Shown piece by piece: positions 41,060 to 64,000 of a stretch of 64,000 bases of DNA. The position numbers and the translations under genes were made by a program. Within the stretch, counting starts at the first letter, position 1; each line of letters opens with the position of its first letter. The stretch is from Mytilus galloprovincialis. Taxonomy: Eukaryota; Mollusca; Bivalvia; Mytilida; Mytilidae. The stretch spans positions 4,593,001 through 4,657,000 of the forward strand of contig NC_134846.1 of the NCBI RefSeq assembly GCF_965363235.1, in the 5' to 3' direction. Below the pieces are notes generated by a model. That model was not told where the DNA came from. It saw only the letters and a list, made by a program, of their open reading frames with translations, and did no database searches.

Positions 41060-44000
41060 AAACTGTATATCGTATTATCTGAAATAAACACTGATATTTT
41101 TTTACTATTATTATAGTATTAATGAATGGGTGTTTTTATAATGGTCCTATTATATGTCCAAGGTCTGTAATAATGGTAGAGGAAGTCTGTAATGGCGCGA
41201 GGCAACGCCGACTCAAGCGTCAATCCTGTAAAAAAAACTTCGTAGGGGCAGTAAATAGAAAAACGGAAATCAAGGAAAATGCTTGTTTTACATCATTCAA
41301 ATTGCAAGGTAAGACAGTACAATTCAAAATCGATACTGGTGCTCAAGTCAACATCTTACCGCTTTCAATTTACAAGAAATTGTCAAACGTCAAATTAAGC
41401 AAATCTTCGACTTCTCTTACTTGCTATTTAGGAGATTAACTCAAAGTCATAGGAACATGTTCGTTGTATTTAAAAGACAAAAACTGTGAATTATTTGTGA
41501 CGGACACAAACCAATCTCCGCTATTAGGATTCAAGGCGCCAAATGAGTTAGGTCTTATTTATGTTATTATGACGGTACAAGCAGACGTTGACGATCCAGT
41601 CAAATCGTTTCCGAAAGTCTTTACAGGCTTAGGATGTCTAGAAAAACCGTACCATATCAAAATAGACTCAAGCGTCAATCCTGTAATAAACCCGCCGAGA
41701 AAGGTACCCGCCGCACTTCGAAAAAAGCTCAAAGGTACATTAAAAGAAATGGAAGACAAAGAAGTAATCCGAAAGGTCGACGAACCAACACACTGGGTGA
41801 ATTCGTTGGTTGTTGTAGAAAAGCCGAAAACAGGAAAGTTGAGGATTTGTTTAGATCCAAGAAATTTGAATAAAGCGATAAAAAGAGAACATTTTGCGCT
41901 ACCAACAAAAGAGGACATAACCACACGACTGACAGGTGCTAAATATCTAAGTAAACTAGACTGTAATAGTGGATATTGGCAGTTACGCATAGATAAATGA
42001 AGCCAGCTCCTTACTACGTTTAACTCTCCATTCGGGAGTATTGCTTCTTACGAATGCCTTTTGAAATTAAATCGGCACAAGAAGTATTTCAAAAACGAGT
42101 GTCACAATTGTTTGAAAACTTAAAAGGAGTTGAAACTGGTATCGACGATATTTAGTGTGGGGAACAACGCGAAAGGAACACGATGATAGACTTTGCTCAG
42201 TTCTTAACAGATGTCAAGAGGTTGGACTTACGTTAAATGCCGAAAAATGCAAGTTTCGAGTAAAAGAGGTGACGTACATAGGACATACCCTAAGCGCAGA
42301 TGGAGTAAGACCCGATCAGGAAAAAATACGGGCTATCAAAGAAATGCCGGCTCCAACAGACAAAAAAGGAATACAACGACTACTAGGGACAATTAATTAT
42401 TTAGCAAAGCTTGTTTCGAATATTTCAGCAGTTACAGAGCCTATCAGAAAGCTGTTAAAAGAAGAAAACGAATTCATTTGGACACATGAACAGCAACAAG
42501 CATTTGGGAAACTTAAAGACATTATAACTAGGAATCCAGTATTAAGTTTCTACGATGTGTCAAAACCAGTTACTGTAAGTTGTGATGCATCCCAATGCGG
42601 CCTAGGGGCAATGATGATACAGGACAATAAACCTGTTACATATGCATCATTGACAGATGCCTAAAGCAGATATGCCAACATAGAAAGAGAATTACTTGGT
42701 GTACTATTTGGATTGGAAAGATTTAATGATTACACGTATGGTAAACACATAAATGTTGAATCTGACCACAAACCGTTAGAGATGATTGTGAGAAAATCTC
42801 TAGGGTGTGCTCCGCCACGACTACAGAGGATGTTACTGGGGTTACAAAAATATGACTTCTCACTGAAGTACATACCAGGGAAGGATTTAATAGTTCCAGA
42901 CATGTTATCGCGAGCGCCGAAAAAGAGCAACACAAATAATGAAGTGGAAAATGATATAGAGTGTTTCGTGAACATGGTCATAAGAAATACATCAATGTCT
43001 AATAGAAATCTTTATCAAATAACGGAAGAAACGTCAAAGGATGGTACCTTACAAACACTGACCAGGCTAATAGTAGACAGCTGGTCAGATGAGAAAAACG
43101 AGGTTCCCAAGGCGGTTTTTGAATAATGGAATTTCCGGGATGAATTATCAAACATAAATGGAACTATCCTAAAAGGAGAAAAGATAGTTATACCAGCGAG
43201 TATGAGAAAGAATATTCTCAACAAACTACACGAAGGACATTTGGGAATAGAAAAAACCCGACAATTAGCAAGAGACTATCTTTTGGCCAGGCATTAATGC
43301 ACAGATTACTGATTTTATTTCGAAATGCAGTGTGTGCTTAGAAAGTAGAAGATCAAACTCAAAAGAGCCGATGTCAGAAAGTGAATGTCCGGATCTACCG
43401 TGGATGACAATTGGTACCGATATTTTTTATTGGAACAATAACAATTACCTAATCATTGCATAGTTTTTGCGAGACACGGCATACTAACAAAAGTCCGAAG
43501 TGATTCAGGATCGCAATACGTATCAGCTGAATTTCGACAATTTGCAGAATCATGGGGATTCACACACACAGTGTCTAGTCCACACTATCAACAGTTCAAT
43601 GGATTAGCCGAGAGATTCGTTCAAAGCGTCAAGAAAATGCTAAGCAAATCTAAACAGGACGGAAAAGATCCGTATATTGCTATGTTAAAATACAGAAATA
43701 CGCCGTTGGAAAATATTGAGTCACCAGCTCAACTTTTAATTAATAGAAGACTGAGGACAACTATTCCGGCAATAAAGAACCGTTTGAAACCAAAATGCGG
43801 TAATTTGAAGAACACGCAAACCAAAATGAAACAACAAAAAATGGACCAAAAACAATATTACGATAAAAGTTCAAAACCATTACCTGAATTACAACCGGAT
43901 GACACTATTCGATTCTAGCACAAGCCGATAAGAAAATGGGACCAAGGAACTGTTGTAAAAAATAATAACACTCCGAACTCATATGTGATTGAAACACAAG

Positions 44001-52649: not shown

Positions 52650-53666
52650 CTAATCGGATATCAAAGCTAGCTGGGCTTGCTTAATCGTTGATTTTGGAGT
52701 ATGAATATATCTGGTATAGCATTCGGAACTCCAACGACCTAAAATCTTGATTAGGTGATCTTCAATTTTTGATGCAACCGATGTTGCCGCTCCTATTCGG
52801 AAGCTGTGTCCGTTGTAATTAGATGGGTTGAGTCCGATACTTTCCAAGATGGATCGAACATGATTGATGAAAAACGTACGTGTTAGAGCCTCTCCATTTT
52901 CCATAACAAATAGCGGACTAGAGTTGCAAGCTATGCTGAATCTAGATCTTCTAACATCGAGGTATCTAATCAACGATTTGACCGGGCACACAGAAGTATT
53001 GTTTTTGAAAAGATAAATATTTACTCCACTTCTGAAAGGGTCTGTTTTAGACGTCTTTAAATGTAAGATTGCGTAATCCTCCTCGAAAGTGATGTCTTCT
53101 AAACATAGATTGCAAGATGCATCAAAGTCCGTGTTGACGGTTAATTCACCACAGCGGAGAAATCCGAAGTAAGCAACGACACAAGCTGCCTCAATAAGTG
53201 CAGTTACAAATGGCGAAAATATTCCCTTATGAAGCGTTGTTATCATATTTTTAATTATATCATAAGTTAGCGGTAATCTTTTTCGGGAACTCTTTACTTC
53301 TTGTTTTTTAATACCTCTGTAAATATTTTCTAACCTAAGCAGTTTTGAAGAGCAACAGTCAGTGAATAAACACTGTACTCCGGATTGAAGATATATGTAT
53401 CTTAAACCGCAAATGTACATTTTTATTGTAGAACATTTTATCTTAAGATTTTCGTGACAATGTGTAGCGTAATGCATTAAAATATCTTCCGTTAGAGGTG
53501 GCATATCTGTTTTATCATCCCACTTAAAACCGGAGAGACACAAAAAGTTTTTGTATGATTTAAATCCATGTTCGTACTGCGAACGCGTACTGCTTGCGAT
53601 GGAGTTGTGAATTAAATTTTTAACTTTTGCATTTAATTCCACATTACTTGCCAAGATTTCGGACAC
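52650..53666 (-). CDS. Ngaro tyrosine recombinase
   Basis: A 338-residue frame. The N-terminal core-binding helical part has SSTRSQYEHGFKSYKNFL. The catalytic domain shows Arg171 in FLRCGEL, His287-x-x-Arg290 in GHSFRIGAAT, a Trp at 312 and the candidate nucleophile Tyr320 in CYTRYIHT. It is expected to insert a circular DNA intermediate by strand exchange, in place of an integrase. It starts inside the end of the RT/RNase H frame. Confidence 0.9.
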   Translation of the reverse strand: MSEILASNVELNAKVKNLIHNSIASSTRSQYEHGFKSYKNFLCLSGFKWDDKTDMPPLTEDILMHYATHCHENLKIKCSTIKMYICGLRYIYLQSGVQCLFTDCCSSKLLRLENIYRGIKKQEVKSSRKRLPLTYDIIKNMITTLHKGIFSPFVTALIEAACVVAYFGFLRCGELTVNTDFDASCNLCLEDITFEEDYAILHLKTSKTDPFRSGVNIYLFKNNTSVCPVKSLIRYLDVRRSRFSIACNSSPLFVMENGEALTRTFFINHVRSILESIGLNPSNYNGHSFRIGAATSVASKIEDHLIKILGRWSSECYTRYIHTPKSTIKQAQLALISD

Positions 53667-55234
53667 GGAGTGGGTACTGTCTCTGCTGCTGGTGCTGCTT
53701 TTTGGAAGGTCTGAAAATCAAAACGAGATAAAGAGTCAGCTATCACATTTTTAACTCCGGGAATATGTTGACATTGAATAGTAAAGTTTTGTTTAACGGA
53801 TAGCCATGTTAGTGTTCTCATTAACTTCATAATGTCTAGCACTTTAGATCTTCCTTTGTTAACTATATTAACAACGGCTTCATTGTCGCAGTGGAACATG
53901 ATACGTTTCTTATTCCATAAGTGCCCCCATAATAAAGATGCAACAACAATCGGGTACAGTTCTCTAAAAGCCATGGACATGTCTGAATCGAGTGAAGTTG
54001 ATAGTTCAGAAGGCCAAGTACTACTAAACCATTTACCTTGAAAAAAACCTCCGAAACCAAAGTTAGAAGCCGCATCTGTGTACAGTTCAATGTCACTAGC
54101 TAAAGTTATATGTTCGTCATAAAAGAAAGTAACTCTATTCCAGCCTTTTAGGAAATCTCGCCACATGATTAAGTCTGTTCTACAGTCTTTTGATAATGAT
54201 ATATAGTGATGTAGTTTATCAACTTTTGTAGATAACTTAATGAGATAGCTGACAAACGATCTACCCGGACGAATAATTCTGGCCGCAAAATTAAAATGTC
54301 CTAACAGTTGTAATAATTCTCTTTTCGTTACCGATTTTTTATGCAGAAAACTGTCAATAAAATTTGAAATTCTTTCTACCTTTTCATTAGGTAATCTTGC
54401 TTCAAAACTTACAGTGTCTAGTATGATTCCTAGATACTCGATAGTACAAGTGGGACCTACAGTCTTTTTCTTAGAAATCGGAATATTTAGACGATTGAAT
54501 ATAAGCGTTATTAGCGCCATTGTTCTAAATCCGCAAGAGTCCGGTGGTTGAATAGTGAGAAAATCATCTAGGAGATGAAGTATAACTGGTATGCCGTAAT
54601 TTTCCTTTGCTATCCAACAAATAGCCCGTGATAGATTGTCAAAGATGCAAGGCGAGCTGCGAGAACCAAAACAAAGTCTTACATAATAATAATAATTGTT
54701 TTTCCATTTCATGCAATATAAGTGATGCTGGTCTTTACGAATCCCTAGCTGTTTGAATGCATCGGTCATATCGGTTTTATTTAGAATTGTTTGCTTTCCG
54801 AAATGCTTGATGGCCCTTATTGCGTCATCTATTTTTACATAAGATAGCGAACATACCTCCTTATCTATAAGACTATTGATGCTTTCATGTGTTTCATGTT
54901 CGTGTGGAGAAGATAGATCAAGGATAAGACGTTTTTTGCCAGAATATTTGCCTTCTGCAATCCCAATAGGACTAACACGGTAAGTTTCGAAAGGTGGACT
55001 ACTAAACGGGCCTTTAACATATCCTTTATCTATTTCTTGTTTCAAAAGCATATCAACACTTTCGGGGTCTCTGATGGCAGAAAGTAAATTCTTACATTCA
55101 AACGTAGGTAAATCGAGTATAGATACTAATGTATCAAAACCGAAACGTATACCATTCAAAAGATACATAACAAAATGTTTATCTGGGTGTTCTTTAAGTT
55201 CGTATTCAAGTCTGTTTACGTTTATAGGTGACAT
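53633..55234 (-). CDS. Ngaro reverse transcriptase / RNase H
   Basis: A 533-residue frame. The RT palm is seen as RLILDLSSP (about 102-110), KTDMTDAFKQL (153-163), VRLCFGSRSSPCIF (185-198) and the metal-binding LLDDF (221-225). RNase H follows around 370-500, with ELYTDAASNFGFGGFF, FRELYPIV and HCDNEAVV, ending IPGVKNVIADSLSRFD. It copies the element RNA into DNA. The frame overlaps the start of the recombinase by 34 bp, a coupling usual in the DIRS order. Confidence 0.9.
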   Translation of the reverse strand: MSPINVNRLEYELKEHPDKHFVMYLLNGIRFGFDTLVSILDLPTFECKNLLSAIRDPESVDMLLKQEIDKGYVKGPFSSPPFETYRVSPIGIAEGKYSGKKRLILDLSSPHEHETHESINSLIDKEVCSLSYVKIDDAIRAIKHFGKQTILNKTDMTDAFKQLGIRKDQHHLYCMKWKNNYYYYVRLCFGSRSSPCIFDNLSRAICWIAKENYGIPVILHLLDDFLTIQPPDSCGFRTMALITLIFNRLNIPISKKKTVGPTCTIEYLGIILDTVSFEARLPNEKVERISNFIDSFLHKKSVTKRELLQLLGHFNFAARIIRPGRSFVSYLIKLSTKVDKLHHYISLSKDCRTDLIMWRDFLKGWNRVTFFYDEHITLASDIELYTDAASNFGFGGFFQGKWFSSTWPSELSTSLDSDMSMAFRELYPIVVASLLWGHLWNKKRIMFHCDNEAVVNIVNKGRSKVLDIMKLMRTLTWLSVKQNFTIQCQHIPGVKNVIADSLSRFDFQTFQKAAPAAETVPTPCPKSWQVMWN

Positions 55235-55240
55235 ATCTAG

Positions 55241-56599
55241 TCAGATGTTTGCCTTTGGCATTTCTTTTTGTGAAGCTTTAGATAAGTTGGATAATTTATC
55301 TAATTTTGCAGTTTCATTGTTTGACCTTGGTTGTTTTGTCTGTTGTTTGGCTAAACTACAAGTTTTCATGCCATGCCCGTTTGACCCACATTGACTACAT
55401 GCGTGCATGAATTTGCATTCCCTTCTATAGCAAGTGCCGTAATTGTAGTTATTGCAGAGTTCTGCCCCTGCAATACTTGAAACCGGTCTGCCCCTCTTAT
55501 CTGTGTTACGAATATTTGTAGCCCCGTGGGATAAAGTTGGATTGCCGTGTTTTGCCTTTTCACAGAATTTTGATGTGTGGTCAAATTCCCCGCAGTGAGT
55601 ACATGCTCTGCTTTGAACATTATGAGTAACAAGGTTCAACAATTTGTCATCGACCTTTGACCAGTTGATAACAATATTGTGTTCAACTATGGCAGCAGCT
55701 GCTTTAGCAGAAAACATCTTGTGATATGTATAGAAACATGGGCCGTAATTTTGTGATATTTCGTTTATGTCAGATTCATATTGTTCCAATTCAACTTTTC
55801 TCTGAGGGAAAGCTTTCCCCATAATATTACGGTATTTCCGGAAAGCCCTATTAAATTCTTCTATTGAAAGATTGTGGTCCAATCTTACGTCTTTCTTACT
55901 CGAAAGCTCAACGGTAAACCCCCTTGACTGCATAGTTTGGTTTTGAGGTATATCATATTTAGGTGCCAATAATGTAGCCAGGTTAATGTCCCTACCTTCT
56001 ATTATCTGCTTTTTGATGGAAGGTGCAACGAAATCCATCTTTGGGAGATCTTCGGCGTAGTACACTTTTCCTGTCGATGTAGCCTCGGGAGCGGAATCTG
56101 TTGGTCGGCTATTAGAACATCTTATTGCAGATTCAAGTGTAGGTGTTGTTACTTCCTTTTCGGTAACATTTTCTGTATTTGAAGTTTTTAACAAGAGCTT
56201 AGCGATATTTGAAAGAGTTTCTGTTGCTGAAGTAAAGGCTGCCGCAGATTCCCTGAAGAGTACCTCACTGTTAAGATTAGGTGTGTTACCTGGCGTATGA
56301 ATATGCGTATCATTAACGACAGGAAGCGTTGACGGGTGATATAATCCTACTTCTTGATCATTCAAATTCGTATTTGTAGAGTTTTGCAACTCATTAACGG
56401 GAGGCTGATTAGATGTTTCAGGAATTGTTATAGACGGAGTTTTTGTTTTATTAGCCAAATACAACTGGCGAAGCATTTCTACCTTCCACGTTGCATTGAC
56501 CCCGATACCCATCTCTTTTAATTTTTCCAGATATGTTTCTTTTGGCCAATTTCTACTATTATCAATGTTTTGCTTACGTGGCCTCTTTCTACCACTCAT
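55241..56599 (-). CDS. Ngaro Gag-like protein with zinc fingers
   Basis: A 452-residue frame beginning MSGRKRPRKQNI. The N-terminal half is polar and low in complexity. The middle (about 220-330) has an alpha-helical block (SIEEFNRAFRKYRNIMGKAF). The C-terminal part has a zinc knuckle (CTHCGEFDHTSKFCEK, near residue 337), a CCCH-like finger (CNNYNYGTCYRRECKFMH) and another knuckle (CSQCGSNGHGMKTC). This fits a nucleic-acid-binding structural protein of a DIRS-order element. The stop lies 7 bp before the RT start, so re-initiation or a shared transcript is likely. Confidence 0.82.
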   Translation of the reverse strand: MSGRKRPRKQNIDNSRNWPKETYLEKLKEMGIGVNATWKVEMLRQLYLANKTKTPSITIPETSNQPPVNELQNSTNTNLNDQEVGLYHPSTLPVVNDTHIHTPGNTPNLNSEVLFRESAAAFTSATETLSNIAKLLLKTSNTENVTEKEVTTPTLESAIRCSNSRPTDSAPEATSTGKVYYAEDLPKMDFVAPSIKKQIIEGRDINLATLLAPKYDIPQNQTMQSRGFTVELSSKKDVRLDHNLSIEEFNRAFRKYRNIMGKAFPQRKVELEQYESDINEISQNYGPCFYTYHKMFSAKAAAAIVEHNIVINWSKVDDKLLNLVTHNVQSRACTHCGEFDHTSKFCEKAKHGNPTLSHGATNIRNTDKRGRPVSSIAGAELCNNYNYGTCYRRECKFMHACSQCGSNGHGMKTCSLAKQQTKQPRSNNETAKLDKLSNLSKASQKEMPKANI

Positions 56600-56856
56600 A
56601 TTGTTTTAGTTGATGTACTTACGTACGATTAAAAGAAATAGATGTGTAGAAATTTATCCTCTGTATCACGTTATAAATAACTATCTCAGGTTTCGAAAGT
56701 TCACCAATAGTTCATGAAATGTGTGTATTAAACTGTTTGTAATTAAAACAACACATTAATGTTCAGATAAATCCTTATTGATAAGGAATGTCACTTAGAA
56801 TCGAATTTTATATCAGCTGATATATACGAATTAGTTGATTAATTGTGTTAAATATA

Positions 56857-57011: not shown

Positions 57012-58299
57012 ACATTCATGTAAAACTTGAAACTGTATGTAATATCTTATCTCTATGCATCATGTATAAACAAAAAATTCTAAAATCCTTAGTCATGTTA
57101 TTGTGACAATGTAAGAGCAGATTTGTGTATCCAATCAATTGATCCAATATGAAACATGACCAATTTACATTGGAATGGGTTGAACTTTATAACGATATTA
57201 TGTAATAAGAAGTACACTAAAAATCAAAGCCCGATTGTTTTATATGTTACTCTCCTCAATTCCAGGAAGCAACAGCTCTTTTTTCTTAAGTTCAAATACA
57301 GTGTCATAATTGGGTGTACAAAGCACTAATTTGCAATTCATGTTTTTAGCATTACAAAAAGACATATGTATAGAAAGGGGATCAAATCGACAGTTTTCGA
57401 AAAGAATTGTTTGTAGATATATTGAGGACCTCACAAAACAAGGTTCGAAGAAGTAAAAATAATTAAACGGAAAAATAAGAAAGAATATGCCTGCATGCGC
57501 AAAACATACTACGCATACGTAAACAACACTTAAGTCTTTCTTTCCCACGATAACATTTTTAAATGCACAGGAAAAATGAAGAAGGCACAAAACAAACCTA
57601 CGAACTAACATTTGTACAGTATCACATCTTTACATGAACCAGAACACAGACATGTATCTCTTCCTCATTAAAAACAAATTAGCTTACTGGATAAAGCAAA
57701 CAACTGATAATGTTTCACAAACTGTTTGATAAGGTTCAACCAGCTATATCCCAAATGACGTAAACGTTGTTTTGCCGATAAAACAGACATTCTGTATGAA
57801 TAAATTAAGGCGATATCATGTATAAACATTTTATTTTCACAGTAAAGGATTAGTGATTTATAATGTTATATGAATATAAGTACCGTTGTTCATAGTGGTA
57901 TATTTTAAGTGATCGTTATCCAAAACACAACAGATATGTTAACAAGATATTAGGTAACACGTTACCTACTAATTTGAAAGTTTTGTTTAAAGAGTCATTA
58001 CAATTAATTCAAATTCAGAGGAAATATAAGCTTAAACGGGTACTGAACATGATGAAATATTTGATTTATTTAGCATTAATTTGTTCCGAAAAACTCTTAA
58101 ATGTTTTAAAATGTAAAAGCAACCAATACCGGTGATTAATTTGGCTGCATACCAGATAAAAAAAATGCTTACAACTCTCCATGATCAAGCTCTGGGCTTC
58201 ATATAAAATCATTCCCTCTCATAGAAGCGAAGAAATCATTGTCGAAAGATTAATAGACAGACAGAATTACATACCGTGATGCAGGTAAAATGATACCCC
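57012..58299. other. Spacer, one 123-codon frame of unknown status
   Basis: A minus-strand frame at 57611-57240 ends KKKELLLPGIEESNI. Its C-terminal half looks protein-like (TILFENCRFDPLSIHMSFCN) but has no domain I know, and its N-terminal half is hydrophobic and AT-driven. I do not claim it as a gene. Confidence 0.3.
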
Positions 58300-58314
58300 C
58301 ACCTGAATATTTCC

Positions 58315-58670
58315 TTATAAAACAGAAAGATGTTGAAATTTCAGAAATCTTGGTAAATTGAAATTGTTCCTGGGAAAAATGTAACTAAAATTTTCCACAT
58401 TGCTATCATGTGTGAAATGATACAAGTGTAAGATAAACGGGATGTTGTTGATTGATGAATCTGAAAAAGAATCACATGGTATTGCTGACTTATATAGTAG
58501 TTTCTGAGAAAAATGTGACAAAAAAAATATCAACTTGGCTATCATGTGTAAAATCATACTAATTTTGTTAAACAGGAAGTTGTTGAGTGGGGAATCTTAA
58601 AATGCATCACAGGTTAAAGCTTACTTATAAACCCTGAAATAAAATATCAGAAATCCTCGTCTTCAAGTTC
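58315..58670. repeat. Two tandem units of a mollusc repeat
   Basis: Units start near 58370 and 58505 (period about 135 bp): GGGAAAAATGTAAC...GCTATCATGTGTGAAATGAT against GAGAAAAATGTGAC...GCTATCATGTGTAAAATCAT. Both continue with GGGATGTTGTTGATTGATGA or its variant. Partial units flank these. Confidence 0.7.
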
Positions 58671-58819
58671 CTCAAAAAATTAAACAAAATATATTTATGG
58701 CACAGACAGAGGTAGAACAGTAAACCCCTATTTTGTTTAAAGCGCATGTATAAATATTAAATGCTGCCCTATTTATCAATACATATTCATGTGTATAGTC
58801 ACTGTATACAGTAATAACA

Positions 58820-59619
58820 TCATTCTTCATTAGAAAAAAAGTCAGCTATCTTTTGGATCACTCGACGATTGTTACTAATTCTGGCCTTTCCACTGCCTGT
58901 CTGTTCACTCAACAAATAAAATAGACCATCAAATCCATCTCTATGATAAGAAATTTTCAGATGATTGTAAGTCAATGTTGAATCTTCAAGTTTCTTGAAA
59001 ATTGTTCTAGAGAGGACCTTATTTCTTAACAAGTGTTCTAATGACTCTTTATTCGGTTGCACACCCTGAAATGTAACTTGGTGACTGCTGTAAAAATAGT
59101 CAGATAGGAGAACATCAATTTTCTCCGTCTTTTTTACAAGAGACATAAGCATTCTACAATCATCTAAAGCGTTGTGAGCGGAATAAGCTTCATTCAACAG
59201 TTTCTGAGCAATATACTCTTGCTTGTAATTTTCAAATTCTGGATACAACATTTTGAAAAAAGGTAAAGTATCACAGAATCCAAAAATATATCTTGAAAAA
59301 TGATTCCATAATTTATAAAATTTTAATTGATTAAATAGTATGATACTGTCAAATCGCCTATTGTTATGAGCAGCAAGCACAATGTGTTTGTCACTGGCAC
59401 AAAGTGACATTAAAAACTGTATGAAATCTAAAAGAACTTGCTGTGGGTGTTTATGTGAAACTGGTTCATCATTGTAAAGGAGCTCATTTGTCGCTGTATT
59501 AAACTTTAATCCTGTCACTCTACATGCATCTTCTGAAATTTCTTGAGTAGGAGTTGCGTATCTGTTAAATTCTTGTTCTTCACAAACTGCAGAGATTTGT
59601 GTAACTGAACTTTGTCTAC
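58820..59619 (-). CDS. DEDDh exonuclease exon
   Basis: Acceptor TTTATATAG before GTAGACAAAG (phase 1). About 266 residues to the stop codon at 58820. It continues motif I (SRQSSVTQISAV), then DACRVTGLKF, motif II (HNNRRFDSIILFNQL) and motif III (HNALDDCRMLMSL), followed by about 100 residues without a known domain. Open throughout. Confidence 0.82.
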
Positions 59620-62600
59620 CTATATAAAAAAGAAAATAACTTAATAAATTGATGAAAATAAGTAGATTGAATGATTGTCATGGTAAAAGTTCAATTGCAA
59701 ATTTCTTTTGTATAATTTAACCAAGAGTAACAATAGTGGACACAGATCAGTATGGATAGTACTTAGCAGTCTGAGAGTATTGCATAGGAATATGACTCAA
59801 CTTACTAAAGGATACCTCCACATCCCACATTTGATTAACTAAATTATATCAATTATCTCCCTTGGAATTTCTTAGACCAGGATTATTTTTCTTTATATTT
59901 TCCAATAAATGTGCATCAATGACTTAAATTTTGTGTAAGTTTCATAACATTTCCTTGATGAGGCATTCTAAAAAGTTGCAGATTAAAAAGGTGGAAGGAC
60001 ATTATTTGGCTCAACTAATGAATTCCTGATTGTCTAGAACTTTTTTCCGAATAAAATACCATTGTTATACGACAGTGTTTTTTTTACAATAGAACTATAA
60101 ACGAACACAAGCTTTTTTTTTAGAAAATTTTCTCTTGACTATTTACCTAATAGTAAAAAAGACTTAACCAGCAAATAGTTTTTAACCATTTCCTGAACTT
60201 TTGTCTTTGGATAAAAGTGACATCATAGTCTGATAATACATCATTCTGATGCCATGGTTTTCTTTATAAAAAAATAGTTATTGACTGGCTTTTTCAAACA
60301 ATAGCAAGTTTAACTATGCTTCCACTCTTTATCCATTCAATGATTTGTCCTTATAACCTGTCAGTCAATAAGTATATAATATTGTCAGAAAATATCAAGT
60401 TTTTGTGAATACTTGGCTGATAGGTGAAATTGTTTGGCAAGTCTGGCATATTCCCTTACTCCTAAAGCTTGTACAAATAAACTTGATGCTTTCCTATTTC
60501 CAATTCATATTTATATCATACTTAGTCCTGTGGTCTCTAAATCATAAAAAACTACAACTTTCGCAATATGTTCACAGTTGTCCTCTAATGTCCTGGAATA
60601 ACTGTCAAATCAGGTTCTTGTGCATCAGCTAAAATATACAATTGAGGTCAAATTATATCTTGTAAGAAGACCTATCTGGAAAAATTCAATATAATGTATA
60701 AAATTAGAAAGAAGGGATGCAATAACACTGTTTCGGTTTTTGTGTCGTAATCCACTGTCATATGAAAAAGTAATGGAAACATTTTTTTTTGTTAAATCTT
60801 CAAAATACATTTTGATTTCAAATTTCTTTCTTATTTTGATATTGTTATATATTGGATAATTGTATATTTGAAAATTGTATATTTGGATATTTGAAAAAAA
60901 AACATAATATTAGATATGAAATACAAACCACAAAAGAGAGTAACAGTATTATAAATAATTTACCAATAATGTTAGCAGGGCAATTTCATTAATGGAAATT
61001 AGTCATGTTCTTTCATTGTCAAAATTATATTAAAAGGTTGTTCATCATGAAAGTTCAATCATATTCCCCAAACATCTATGTTGTCAAAAAACTCTAACAA
61101 AAATTATCTTTCTTTGTTAGAAAATAGTAAATCCCAAATTAATATAACTATAATTTTATATCAAATATTTTGAAATATATTTTATATATGGGTAGTGCTT
61201 TGATAACATGTTGTAGGAACAATTATTGTTTTTTTAAATTCTTATTGAAAACGTACAGATAAAATTTATACATACCAATGACATTTGAGCAGTAAGTGTC
61301 CCCTTCCCTGATTTCATGACTTCTTGTTTCTGAAGATCTCTGACTTTTAAGTTTTAAACGTTGTAACTGTAAAATATAAGAAATAAACATTCCTTTGCAT
61401 TGTTTCATGTAAAAGTAAAGTCTACACACTCTAAAGCATGACAAATTTAATGTTTATTCACATAGTTATAATGATACAATAGGATAATACTTTATATAAA
61501 ATTTAAAAAAAAACCAACAATTTAGAGGATTTTTTTTCATTTAAAAACTTTCTATCATATGATCAAAGGGATGTAACTCCCACAAAACAGGGATTTTTAA
61601 TTTTTTTTATCATGAAAATAAGAAATTTCAAAAGGCTGCATAAAACTATGTTTAGAATTTATCAATCTCCTTAAGTCATTTAATGTATAAAGATTGTGTT
61701 CGAATGAAAATTCTGAAATGCTTTTAAATCAAACCTTAAATTCCTTAGTCTTTGCTACAGTCCTTTTCCTGTTAACATCCTTGTCTCTTATTGCAGCTGT
61801 TACTGTTGTGGCAATTCCAGGACTAAGACCAAGCTCTTCATGGACCTAAAAAAACACACAAGAACTTGGGAGCTGTGTCTTACATTGTGTATGATAACAT
61901 TTCACAAAGCTACCATCCTAAACAACATAAATATTATTCTTTTTGATATATTTTTTTCTATGTATATGCCTGTCTCAAGTAAGGAACCTGTAATTCTGTC
62001 GTTTGTTTATGTGTTAGTGTTACAAATTTGTTTTTTGTTCTATTTTTTTTTATAAAAATAAGGCGGTTAGTTTGCTCTGAATTGTTTTACATTGTCATTT
62101 CGTGCCTTTTATAGCTGACTATGCAGTATGGGCTTGGCTCATTGTTGAAGGCCATATAGTCACCTATATATATAATTGTTAATTTCTGTGTCAAGTTTGT
62201 CTCATGGAGAGTTGTCTCATTGGCAATCATACCATATCTTCTTTTTTATATCTATGAGTTTCATGTGATTATGGTTTATCTTTCAACTTAACCTAATTAG
62301 TGAACCAGTTTTACAGTTTTTCAAGTTTATAAACCATATTCTGTTTAAAAAAATAATTTGATGAATGTTTTTATATTACTTTATTTAAATAAATTATTAG
62401 TACCTGTGCAACATATATGTAGCCTTCATTTTTTTGACAAACAGCAGCAGACAATCTGTGAGCTAAACTTCCACTCTCACTGTAATGCTTGTCTTTAGGG
62501 GCCTTTGATCGAACAGTGTTGTTAAAGCTTTCATTAGGATTACTGGAATCTAGTTCGCTCATCTTTCCCGGGTCAAGGTCTGTAAACACTTTTAAAAGAT

Positions 62601-63185
62601 CTTTTTTCAAGTTTTCATCTTTGAGATCTGCACCCCATGGTAGATTTCTATGCTTTGCTGTGGGTTTGTTTTTCATTTGGCACCAGTCTCCACATCCATC
62701 ATGATTACCAAACTGGTGTAGCACTACAGATGGTAAACTGTTCTTTATTCTGTCTGAGTCACCTTTGTTTTGGGCTAACATGAAAGAAAAACTTTTAATG
62801 AGAGCAGTAATTGTTTTTACAGACAGCTCTTTATATTTGCCTTTTATTTTGTGGAGCCTATTTGATATGTTCTTCTTTACATGATTGATGTCACTGACCT
62901 TTTCCAAACATGAGTCGACTTCACATCTTGCCCGATTGAATGCTGTGCAATCGTCATCTCCTATTAGTGTAATTACCGGGGTATCTTTCTTTTTGGCGTC
63001 TTTTAGTATTTCCACAATCATGTCTGGTTCCATAGATTTGGCTGAGCCACACCAATTCTTACGACATTTATGTTTTGTTGGTAGCCGTTTTTTAAATTTT
63101 GCCACATCACATTTCCTGCATCTCTTATATCGAGCACTATAGCCAACAACCTTTCCTGTTTTTTTCCCAATCATGGAAGCTGTTC
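58820..63185 (-). CDS. Mutator-like transposase / DEDDh exonuclease gene (3' part)
   Basis: Five exons (63185-62404, 61845-61735, 61366-61276, 60628-60522, 59619-58820) with fitting splice sites and phases. The first has a Mutator-like transposase segment: GKKTGKVVGYSARYKRC, a Cys-rich CRKCD...C, the candidate acidic motif LIGDDDC and PNESFNN. Exons 2 and 3 give a short basic linker (ELGLSPGIATTVTA, EIREGDTYCSN). Exons 4 and 5 give a DEDDh 3'-5' exonuclease: VVFYDLETTGL (metal ligands D and E), AHNNRRFDSI (second D) and HNALDDCRML (H and last D). The 5' end is beyond the window. Exon 4 has a one-base frame break ahead of the exonuclease motif. It may be a captured or domesticated transposase gene or part of a large DNA transposon. 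The role is inferred only. Confidence 0.8.
59620..60521. other. Intron of the transposase-exonuclease gene
   Basis: AT-rich, no repeat or exon recognised. The two 60-75 codon frames at 60405-60632 and 60625-60810 are chance frames. Confidence 0.5.
60522..60628 (-). CDS. Exonuclease motif I exon, with a frame break
   Basis: Acceptor TATTTTAG before CTGATGCAC, donor CTAA before GTATGA. The phase-1 frame from the previous exon reads ADAQEPDLTVIPGH then meets TAG. The exonuclease frame reads EDNCEHIAKVVVFYDLETTG. One missing base near 60583 would account for the change, so this is either an assembly indel or decay. The 3' phase (1) fits the next exon. Confidence 0.65.
61276..61366 (-). CDS. Small basic exon of the transposase-exonuclease gene
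   Basis: Acceptor ATTTTACAG before TTACAACG, donor ATTG before GTATGT (phase 1). Encodes LQRLKLKSQRSSETRSHEI then REGDTYCSNVI; the REGxTY pattern is one I recall at the end of Mutator-like transposase proteins. Confidence 0.72.
61735..61845 (-). CDS. Linker exon of the transposase-exonuclease gene
   Basis: Acceptor TTTTTTTAG before GTCCATGAAG, donor TTTAAG before GTTTGA. 37 codons, phase 0 at both ends: VHEELGLSPGIATTVTA then KDVNRKRTVAKTKEFK. Confidence 0.75.
61960..62250 (-). repeat. Mussel dispersed repeat R1 in an intron
   Basis: Complement of the R1 order: GTTTGTTTATGTGTTAG, AATTGTTTTACATTGTCATT, TAGCTGACTATGCAGTATGG, GAGAGTTGTCTCATTGGCAA, CATACCATATCTTCTT. It lies between the first two coding exons of the gene in this window. 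Confidence 0.85.
62404..63185 (-). CDS. Mutator-like transposase exon
   Basis: Acceptor TTTTTTTGTAG before GAACAGCTTCC, donor CAG before GTACTA (phase 0). About 260 residues, open throughout. Motifs in order: GKVVGYSARYKRCRKCD, KHKCRKNWCGSAKSMEPDM, VITLIGDDDCTAFNRARCEV, HDGCGDWCQMK, SSNPNESFNNTVRSKAP. The paired Cys and His residues suggest metal-binding sites as in this domain family. Confidence 0.82.
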
Positions 63186-64000
63186 CTACAAAAAAAGTTT
63201 TCCATTGAATATTTTTTTTAAATTACTGGATTTCATTAATTACGTGTTACACCCACTTTCATGTCAAAAGGAATCTAGCTCCTCATATATATTATTCACA
63301 TTATTGTACCCTTCATAAAAATAGTTGATACCAGGAGTATTTTTAATGTATTTTTATTCAAATTTATTTCATTTTTATAACCCTGTTCATTTTTATACAC
63401 ATATGTTTTTCTGCTGGTGGAAAATATTCTTTTTTACCTCTATGCCTTTTTCAATTTAGTTTTGCCAACAAACATAAACATATTTTACATACAATTTTCC
63501 TTACTTACAAAAAAACCAAAAGAGAAAAAAAAAAGAAGATGTGGTATGATTGCACATGAGACAACTCTCCACAAGAGCCCAAGATGACATAGAAATTAAC
63601 AATTATAGGTCACTGTACGGCCTTTAACAATGAGCAAAGCCAATACAGTATAGTCAACTGTTAAAGGCCCCTAAGTGACAAATAAATCAATATTGTCTGA
63701 TGAAGTATTCATTTTGTCCAAGAAACCCGTAAAAGGTAAACAAGATGGATAAAATCCAATTGTTATAATTTCTTTAGCCAAATTCTTTTGCAAACGATGA
63801 ATCTTTCATTGCAAACATTTTTTTTTCTTTTCCAAAATGTGTAAAAATGGAGGCTGCCAACGGAAACCCTGCTTCCAAGAATGATATATCTGTTCAATAT
63901 TTCTTAGTTTTAAGAATAAAATAAGTTTTTTTTTAGTTTTAGTATGACATGTAAACAGATCATAATACTTCCATCTTAAGATAGGTAAATAATAAAGATA
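63186..64000. other. Intron sequence to the right edge, with an R1 fragment
   Basis: R1 head at 63533-63690 (AAGAAGATGTGGTATGATTG, GTCACTGTACGGCCTTTAAC). No upstream transposase exon was found before the window ends. Confidence 0.55.

Follow-up and report, generated by a model that had tools for sequence, protein, structure and literature searches.

A probable decayed KolobokD-type transposon in Mytilus galloprovincialis with a predicted transposase-exonuclease-PML_C protein

Gene model in the window

The window (the whole stretch of 64,000 nucleotides from M. galloprovincialis analysed here) contained, at its right end, part of a mobile element carrying five coding exons (Table 1). The motifs GDDDC, PNESFNN, DLETTG, FDSI, and HNALDD were all located on the minus strand of the window. 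The five-exon model was bounded by AG acceptors and GT donors, its phases agreed, and it gave a single frame of 615 amino acids with the stop at 58820. In Pfam searches, the first of the five exons matched PF20700 (Mutator-like transposase), and the last exon matched RNase_T (1.1e-7), Exu_RNase_H_like (9.5e-7), and PML_C (8.1e-21). The splice sites, the 615-residue frame, and the Pfam matches bore out the preliminary description, in which five exons with agreeing phases joined a Mutator-like segment to DEDDh motifs. The gene had there been placed between 58820 and 63185; the stop codon agreed with this, but the gene extended past 63185, and its start and further coding stretches lay beyond the right end of the window.

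From the residues conserved over nine aligned proteins, the presumed catalytic glutamate of the transposase was placed within NESFNN of the first exon. The stretch DGAYQRRGSG, which contains the presumed first catalytic aspartate, was found 24–62 bases beyond the right end of the window, and the furthest coding stretch located, MPSRKK, started approximately 6.4 kb beyond it, with no middle exons located; both stretches were recognized via weak PF20700 matches in copy c14 of the element (0.0013 and 0.00012, under the curated cut-off).

Table 1. Positions in the window of the element and of the five exons of its predicted gene.
Feature	Positions	Strand	Content and evidence
Portion of the element within the window	58135..64000	-	Matches to other copies
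Exon 1	62404..63185	-	Transposase core: CCHC zinc finger, GDDD, DxxH, second zinc finger; PF20700 (1.5e-36), splice sites
Exon 2	61735..61845	-	End of transposase / linker; AG and GT splice sites, phase 0; aligns with the ORFs of L029 and L030
Exon 3	61276..61366	-	Linker bearing EIREGDTY, also present in L030
Exon 4	60522..60584	-	Exonuclease motif I: DLETTG, giving the first D and the E of DEDDh
Exon 5	58820..59619	-	Remaining exonuclease (FDS, HNALDD), PML_C, and stop codon

Copies, ends, and target site of the element

The DNA of the last exon was found at 15 places in the genome, of which nine, including the window, matched full-length at no less than 99%, four matched at 91–96%, one was a partial match of 89%, and one comprised 45 bp. 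Six complete copies of the element, 13.3–16.2 kb in length, were present on six large contigs and were approximately 95–99.8% alike over most of their length. All six had sharp borders at TTAACGAGGCCC...GGGCCTCGTTAA, and their flanks were unlike one another. The ends of the complete copies consisted of TTAACGAG(G/A)CCC(G/A)ATCT and its inverse. Genome-wide, the 18-base end occurred 35 times (24 exact occurrences and 11 with one mismatch), and a control with the reversed pattern gave 0 occurrences. Eleven facing pairs could be read off, ten of them spaced 13–24 kb and one 4.2 kb, together with 13 single ends including that of the window copy. Inverted arms at 62081-62253 and 63523-63691 were also considered as the ends of the element and were rejected as repeats.

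All six complete copies were flanked by TTAA. When the two flanks of copy c9b were joined by a single TTAA, they matched an empty site at C9:3969447-3969563 over 117 of 117 bases with 97%. This unfilled site shows that TTAA is the target sequence and that insertion duplicates it. Among the other 39 matches listed for the joined flanks, two were the flanks of c9b itself and 37, at 80–84%, were members of an older repeat of the host. At L004 and L005, two copies of this repeat that are more distant again (76%) spanned the joint, with TTGA there and not TTAA.

The frame across the five exons was intact in six of seven copies, the window copy being among the seven; the copy on C14 was frameshifted in the first exon, and in copy c9b the donor following the third exon was GC. 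Summed over the six other copies, 34 silent and 48 amino-acid-changing codons separated them from the window copy, common changes being counted more than once. The window copy retained its 5' end at C9:4663670-4663687, which extends the element 6,687 bases to the right of the window. The 3' end of this copy was missing: the match to other copies ended at 58135, approximately 2.6 kb short of the end of copy c14, and the last 2.6 kb or so of c14 gave no match within the window at 1e-10. In its first coding stretch, which lies outside the window, there was a 980-base insertion that brought an in-frame stop and was absent from the six other copies. Since one end is missing and 980 bp break into the first coding stretch, the window copy is probably immobile.

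Diverged relatives and family of the element

Two diverged relatives of the element, L029 (on C11) and L030 (at 24.0 Mb on C9), contained transposase, exonuclease, and PML_C within one uninterrupted ORF of 685 and 675 amino acids, respectively, with PML_C matches of 8.2e-19 and 4.3e-16. The spliced model matched these two ORFs at 6e-115 and 4e-109 (34 and 35%, respectively) over nearly its full length, and the alignments covered all junctions and the linker. The presence of intronless fusion ORFs to which the model aligns over every junction indicated that the joining of the exons was no artefact. The element is predicted to code for one spliced protein in which a DDE transposase carrying two zinc fingers is followed by a DEDDh 3'-5' exonuclease and, last, by PML_C (SAM-like). 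In 9 of 10 diverged loci (L029–L038), the transposase was upstream of the exonuclease on the same strand; L029, L030, and L034 were known beforehand to have this arrangement, and the count among the remaining loci was 6 of 7. At L035, no transposase was found in the 5.5 kb of upstream sequence fetched. Short transposase matches at L002 and L007, two of the eight loci L001–L008, whose sequences extend only 1.5 kb past the match, were left out of this count.

In an alignment of nine transposases, the pattern CCHC, D-x-D, DxxH, H-H-C-C, and E was invariant in all nine proteins. The invariant residues were C63, C66, H79, and C81 of the CCHC zinc finger, D139 and H142, then H198, H203, C206, and C211, and E259, and the zinc finger that separates DxxH from the last E was likewise present in 9 of 9. 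Which of the D and E residues count as catalytic was assigned by analogy; the presumed first catalytic D was covered in this alignment only by L029 and L030, and that of the window copy was located separately. KolobokD transposons are described as encoding, besides a Kolobok DDE transposase that has two zinc fingers, a DEDDh (DnaQ) exonuclease, and are known from mollusks, arthropods, and cnidarians (Kojima and Bao 2022, Mobile DNA, PMC9587614). According to the same source, a CCHC finger downstream of the first catalytic D is common to KolobokD, KolobokP, KolobokE, and Kolobok5, and the termini of Kolobok are 5'-RR...YY-3' (PMC9587614). The mussel element resembled KolobokD, as there described, in its two-zinc-finger DDE transposase and DEDDh exonuclease, and it resembled Kolobok in inserting at TTAA and duplicating that site. 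If TTAA is what is duplicated, however, the ends of the element are 5'-CG...CG-3', unlike the 5'-RR given for Kolobok; the ends read two bases further out are AA...TT, which fits 5'-RR...YY-3', but TTAA is then not duplicated. The family was filed as KolobokD-type because of the protein features (zinc fingers, DxxH, and exonuclease). We consider it very probable (roughly 0.92) that a Kolobok-type DNA transposon of the KolobokD kind, coding for a transposase-exonuclease-PML_C protein, left the decayed copy seen in the window. The fusion is a further example of a transposon lineage already described in 2022, and the earlier remark, that no described system of this exact makeup was known, was not supported (PMC9587614). 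Within the open-licence literature searched, that paper was the only one found on KolobokD. The term "PML" occurs 0 times in the main text of that paper, whereas the mussel element has PML_C.

Three other readings of the locus were weighed against this one. The Pfam model matched by the first exon bears the name Mutator-like transposase, and the label in the preliminary description agrees with that name; a true Mutator (MuDR) element is nevertheless very unlikely, as the target is the four-base TTAA, the ends are short, and a zinc finger lies between DxxH and the last E, whereas MuDR is described as having no zinc finger between its second and third catalytic residues (PMC9587614). TTAA, DxxH, and the two zinc fingers point to Kolobok, and MuDR was rejected on TTAA and the zinc fingers. 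That the transposase and the exonuclease are two separate neighbouring genes inside one element is suggested by 7 of the 9 loci having both, in which they occupy different exons at a distance of up to several kb. This has only a small chance of being correct, since the two relatives have both in a single ORF and the linker residues of the window model align to them; the two-gene reading was rejected on the intronless fusion ORFs, which support the single spliced fusion gene initially described. A domesticated host defence gene, also offered initially, would fit a seemingly immobile window copy in which the last five exons are still in open frame. Against it stand the six complete, nearly identical copies with their ends and TTAA, and the fact that an insertion bringing an in-frame stop breaks up the window copy's own first coding stretch. 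Terminal repeats and many copies, the marks by which the preliminary description would have recognized an ordinary transposon, were both found, and domestication, rejected on the copies, the ends, and the unfilled site, appears extremely improbable.

The nuclease and its relation to PML and Plex9

In the exonuclease, the D of motif II and the H and D of motif III were invariant in 10 of 10 sequences. Motif I was found at 11 of 14 loci, in four of them in frame with the rest and in seven as a separate stretch 0.5–2.3 kb upstream, and a reverse-strand control of this search gave 0 matches in the 14 loci; it was not found at L031, L036, and L001, the other 3 of the 14 loci searched. At the sequence level, the predicted active-site residues of the nuclease are conserved in the diverged relatives. 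In the mechanism that we propose, the transposase would excise the element and insert it at TTAA, and the tethered nuclease would trim or remove 3'-ended DNA at the ends or in the by-products of excision or integration. Action of the fused nuclease on the 3'-ended DNA of transposition is the most likely of the roles considered, at about even odds. The chief alternative is that the exonuclease acts on DNA other than the element's own ends and, as is said of TREX1, lowers the sensing of stray DNA or degrades competing mobile elements. By analogy with TREX1 such a role is conceivable, but we regard it as rather unlikely, since nuclease and transposase form one polypeptide and the nuclease would be brought to the transposon ends. 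For the exonuclease of KolobokD, Kojima and Bao suggest degradation of DNA intermediates from their 3' ends (PMC9587614), so that of the earlier proposal of a nuclease processing transposon or viral ends, the transposon part finds a parallel in that paper.

The chains in the PDB nearest to L030 were 9l8b (2.2e-36), those of Plex9.1 (9mrd, 2e-29; 9mrc, 7.2e-29), and 9l85 (7.7e-29), followed by Exu (0.006), PolC (0.13), and TREX1 (0.26). The window exon gave 9l8b (3.3e-24), 9l85 (3.2e-17), and Plex9.1 (7.4e-17 and 2.5e-16), followed by PolC (0.096) and Exu (0.2), and TREX1 was absent among the matches listed for it. The chains 9l8b and 9l85 are named merely "exodeoxyribonuclease III"; we placed them with Plex9 on account of the matches of 9l85 to 9mrd (6e-80) and to 9l8b (4e-53). 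By a working definition (DEDDh residues, nearest solved chains of Plex9 type, and PML_C following), the predicted mussel nuclease belongs with the PML and Plex9 nucleases. Pairwise identity among the 14 mobile nucleases of the genome was 31–69% (median 38.6, 91 pairs), and that between them and the three Plex9-type chains was 32–46% (median 39.3, 42 pairs), in a comparison of 19 of 24 rows from which the near-copies L003 and L005 were dropped besides L004, L006, and L036. The median score against the mobile nucleases was 231 for 9mrd (the sure Plex9.1), 264.5 for 9l85, and 291 for 9l8b, and 265 for the elements' own; by this measure 9mrd stands somewhat more distant from the elements than they do from one another, and the other two chains do not. 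These identities and scores indicated that Plex9-type nucleases are about as near to the elements as the elements are to each other.

A nuclease tree was made from 21 of the 24 rows prepared, L004, L006, and L036 (a duplicate of L008) being left out because they duplicated places already read. The Plex9-type chains grouped as a clade (96/97). Of the 18 inner branches, 10 were open; the test did not reject a single clade of all 16 KolobokD rows (p-AU 0.318), and the branches of Exu and PolC were very long. Because of the open branches, this p-AU value, and the long Exu and PolC branches, the tree fixes no direction between Plex9 and KolobokD.

The link to PML and Plex9 is where the interest of the element rests. 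The C-terminal module of human PML-1 (isoform 1), termed PXL, is described as an EXO domain with a SAM subdomain that retains one of the four DEDD residues and lacks nuclease activity (preprint, PMC12934764). The mussel element resembles PML isoform 1, so described, in that a SAM subdomain accompanies its exonuclease-like domain (Pfam PML_C at 8e-21), and differs from it in keeping the residues of which human PXL has one of four. The solved chains of Plex9 (9MRC and 9MRD, titled Plex9.1; 9MRC is from zebrafish, PMC12934764) and 9L85 and 9L8B comprise 189–196 residues without a transposase part. These mussel mobile elements carry the nuclease followed by PML_C with the active-site residues kept, the module is inactive in human PML-1, and for the nuclease part Plex9 provides an active relative. 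The close likeness of the predicted mussel nuclease to fish Plex9 and vertebrate PML hints at a shared origin. In the portions of the literature examined, no statement on the source of the PML module was found, and a search limited to open-licence literature gave no paper joining Kolobok with PML. A KolobokD transposon may, at somewhat less than even odds, be the source of the nuclease-plus-PML_C module of PML (jawed vertebrates) and of fish Plex9, and possibly also of the module of Exuperantia in insects. If this is true, vertebrates would be restraining retrotransposons with a domesticated transposon nuclease. The link to KolobokD gives the PML module a testable origin and provides a set of homologues for the function of its C-terminal part.

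Exuperantia (5L7Z and 5L80), which has been termed a pseudo-nuclease (PMC12934764), matched the mussel family weakly in sequence, as seen above for L030. Its SAM-like part aligned poorly to the model, with an rmsd of 11.8 over the longer alignment, the rows of the structural alignment (VIA-align) spanning mainly model residues 1–198. TREX1 and TREX2 showed approximately 18–23% identity, the match of TREX1 with L030 being the best in sequence. PML_C occurred at least 150 times in the mussel genome.

The window copy of the element

In the window copy, the first coding stretch, which lies past the right end of the window, was split by a 980-bp insertion that was found in none of the six other copies compared. 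The exon containing the transposase core was flanked on both sides by a short repeat arranged as an inverted pair, and stretches related to this pair were also present in the other copies of the element.

Coordinates of features within the window and elsewhere in the genome
Feature	Location	Strand
Inverted repeat pair flanking the transposase-core exon	window 62081-62253 and 63523-63691	
980-bp insertion (beyond the window)	C9:4662292-4663271	
Three adjacent ORFs	window 52650-56605	-
Ty3-like ORFs	window 41440-42664	+
PF20700 ORF cluster	C12:64934696-64990401	
Facing pair of ends	C6:21121275-21125482	
L029, diverged relative	C11:81273353-81275410	
L030, diverged relative	C9:24012869-24014896	

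Relatives, clusters and a possible derivative

In each of the diverged relatives L029 and L030, transposase, exonuclease, and PML_C were contained within one intronless ORF. The ends of the element also occurred as a facing pair with just 4.2 kb between them, one end having a mismatch; this pair is perhaps a non-autonomous derivative. ORFs matching PF20700 (Mutator-like transposase), mostly of 702 aa and many spaced at 4,060 bases, were clustered on contigs C12, C61, and C219, and these clusters look like a tandemly multiplied transposon.

Possible retroelements elsewhere in the window

By eye, three ORFs of 454, 535, and 355 aa, located side by side, looked like components of a DIRS/Ngaro-like YR retroelement: a gag-like segment with a zinc knuckle, a reverse transcriptase with RNase H, and a tyrosine recombinase, respectively; a Pfam profile search at 0.01 gave no match for the 454-aa ORF. 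Other ORFs resembled, again by eye, Ty3-type reverse transcriptase.
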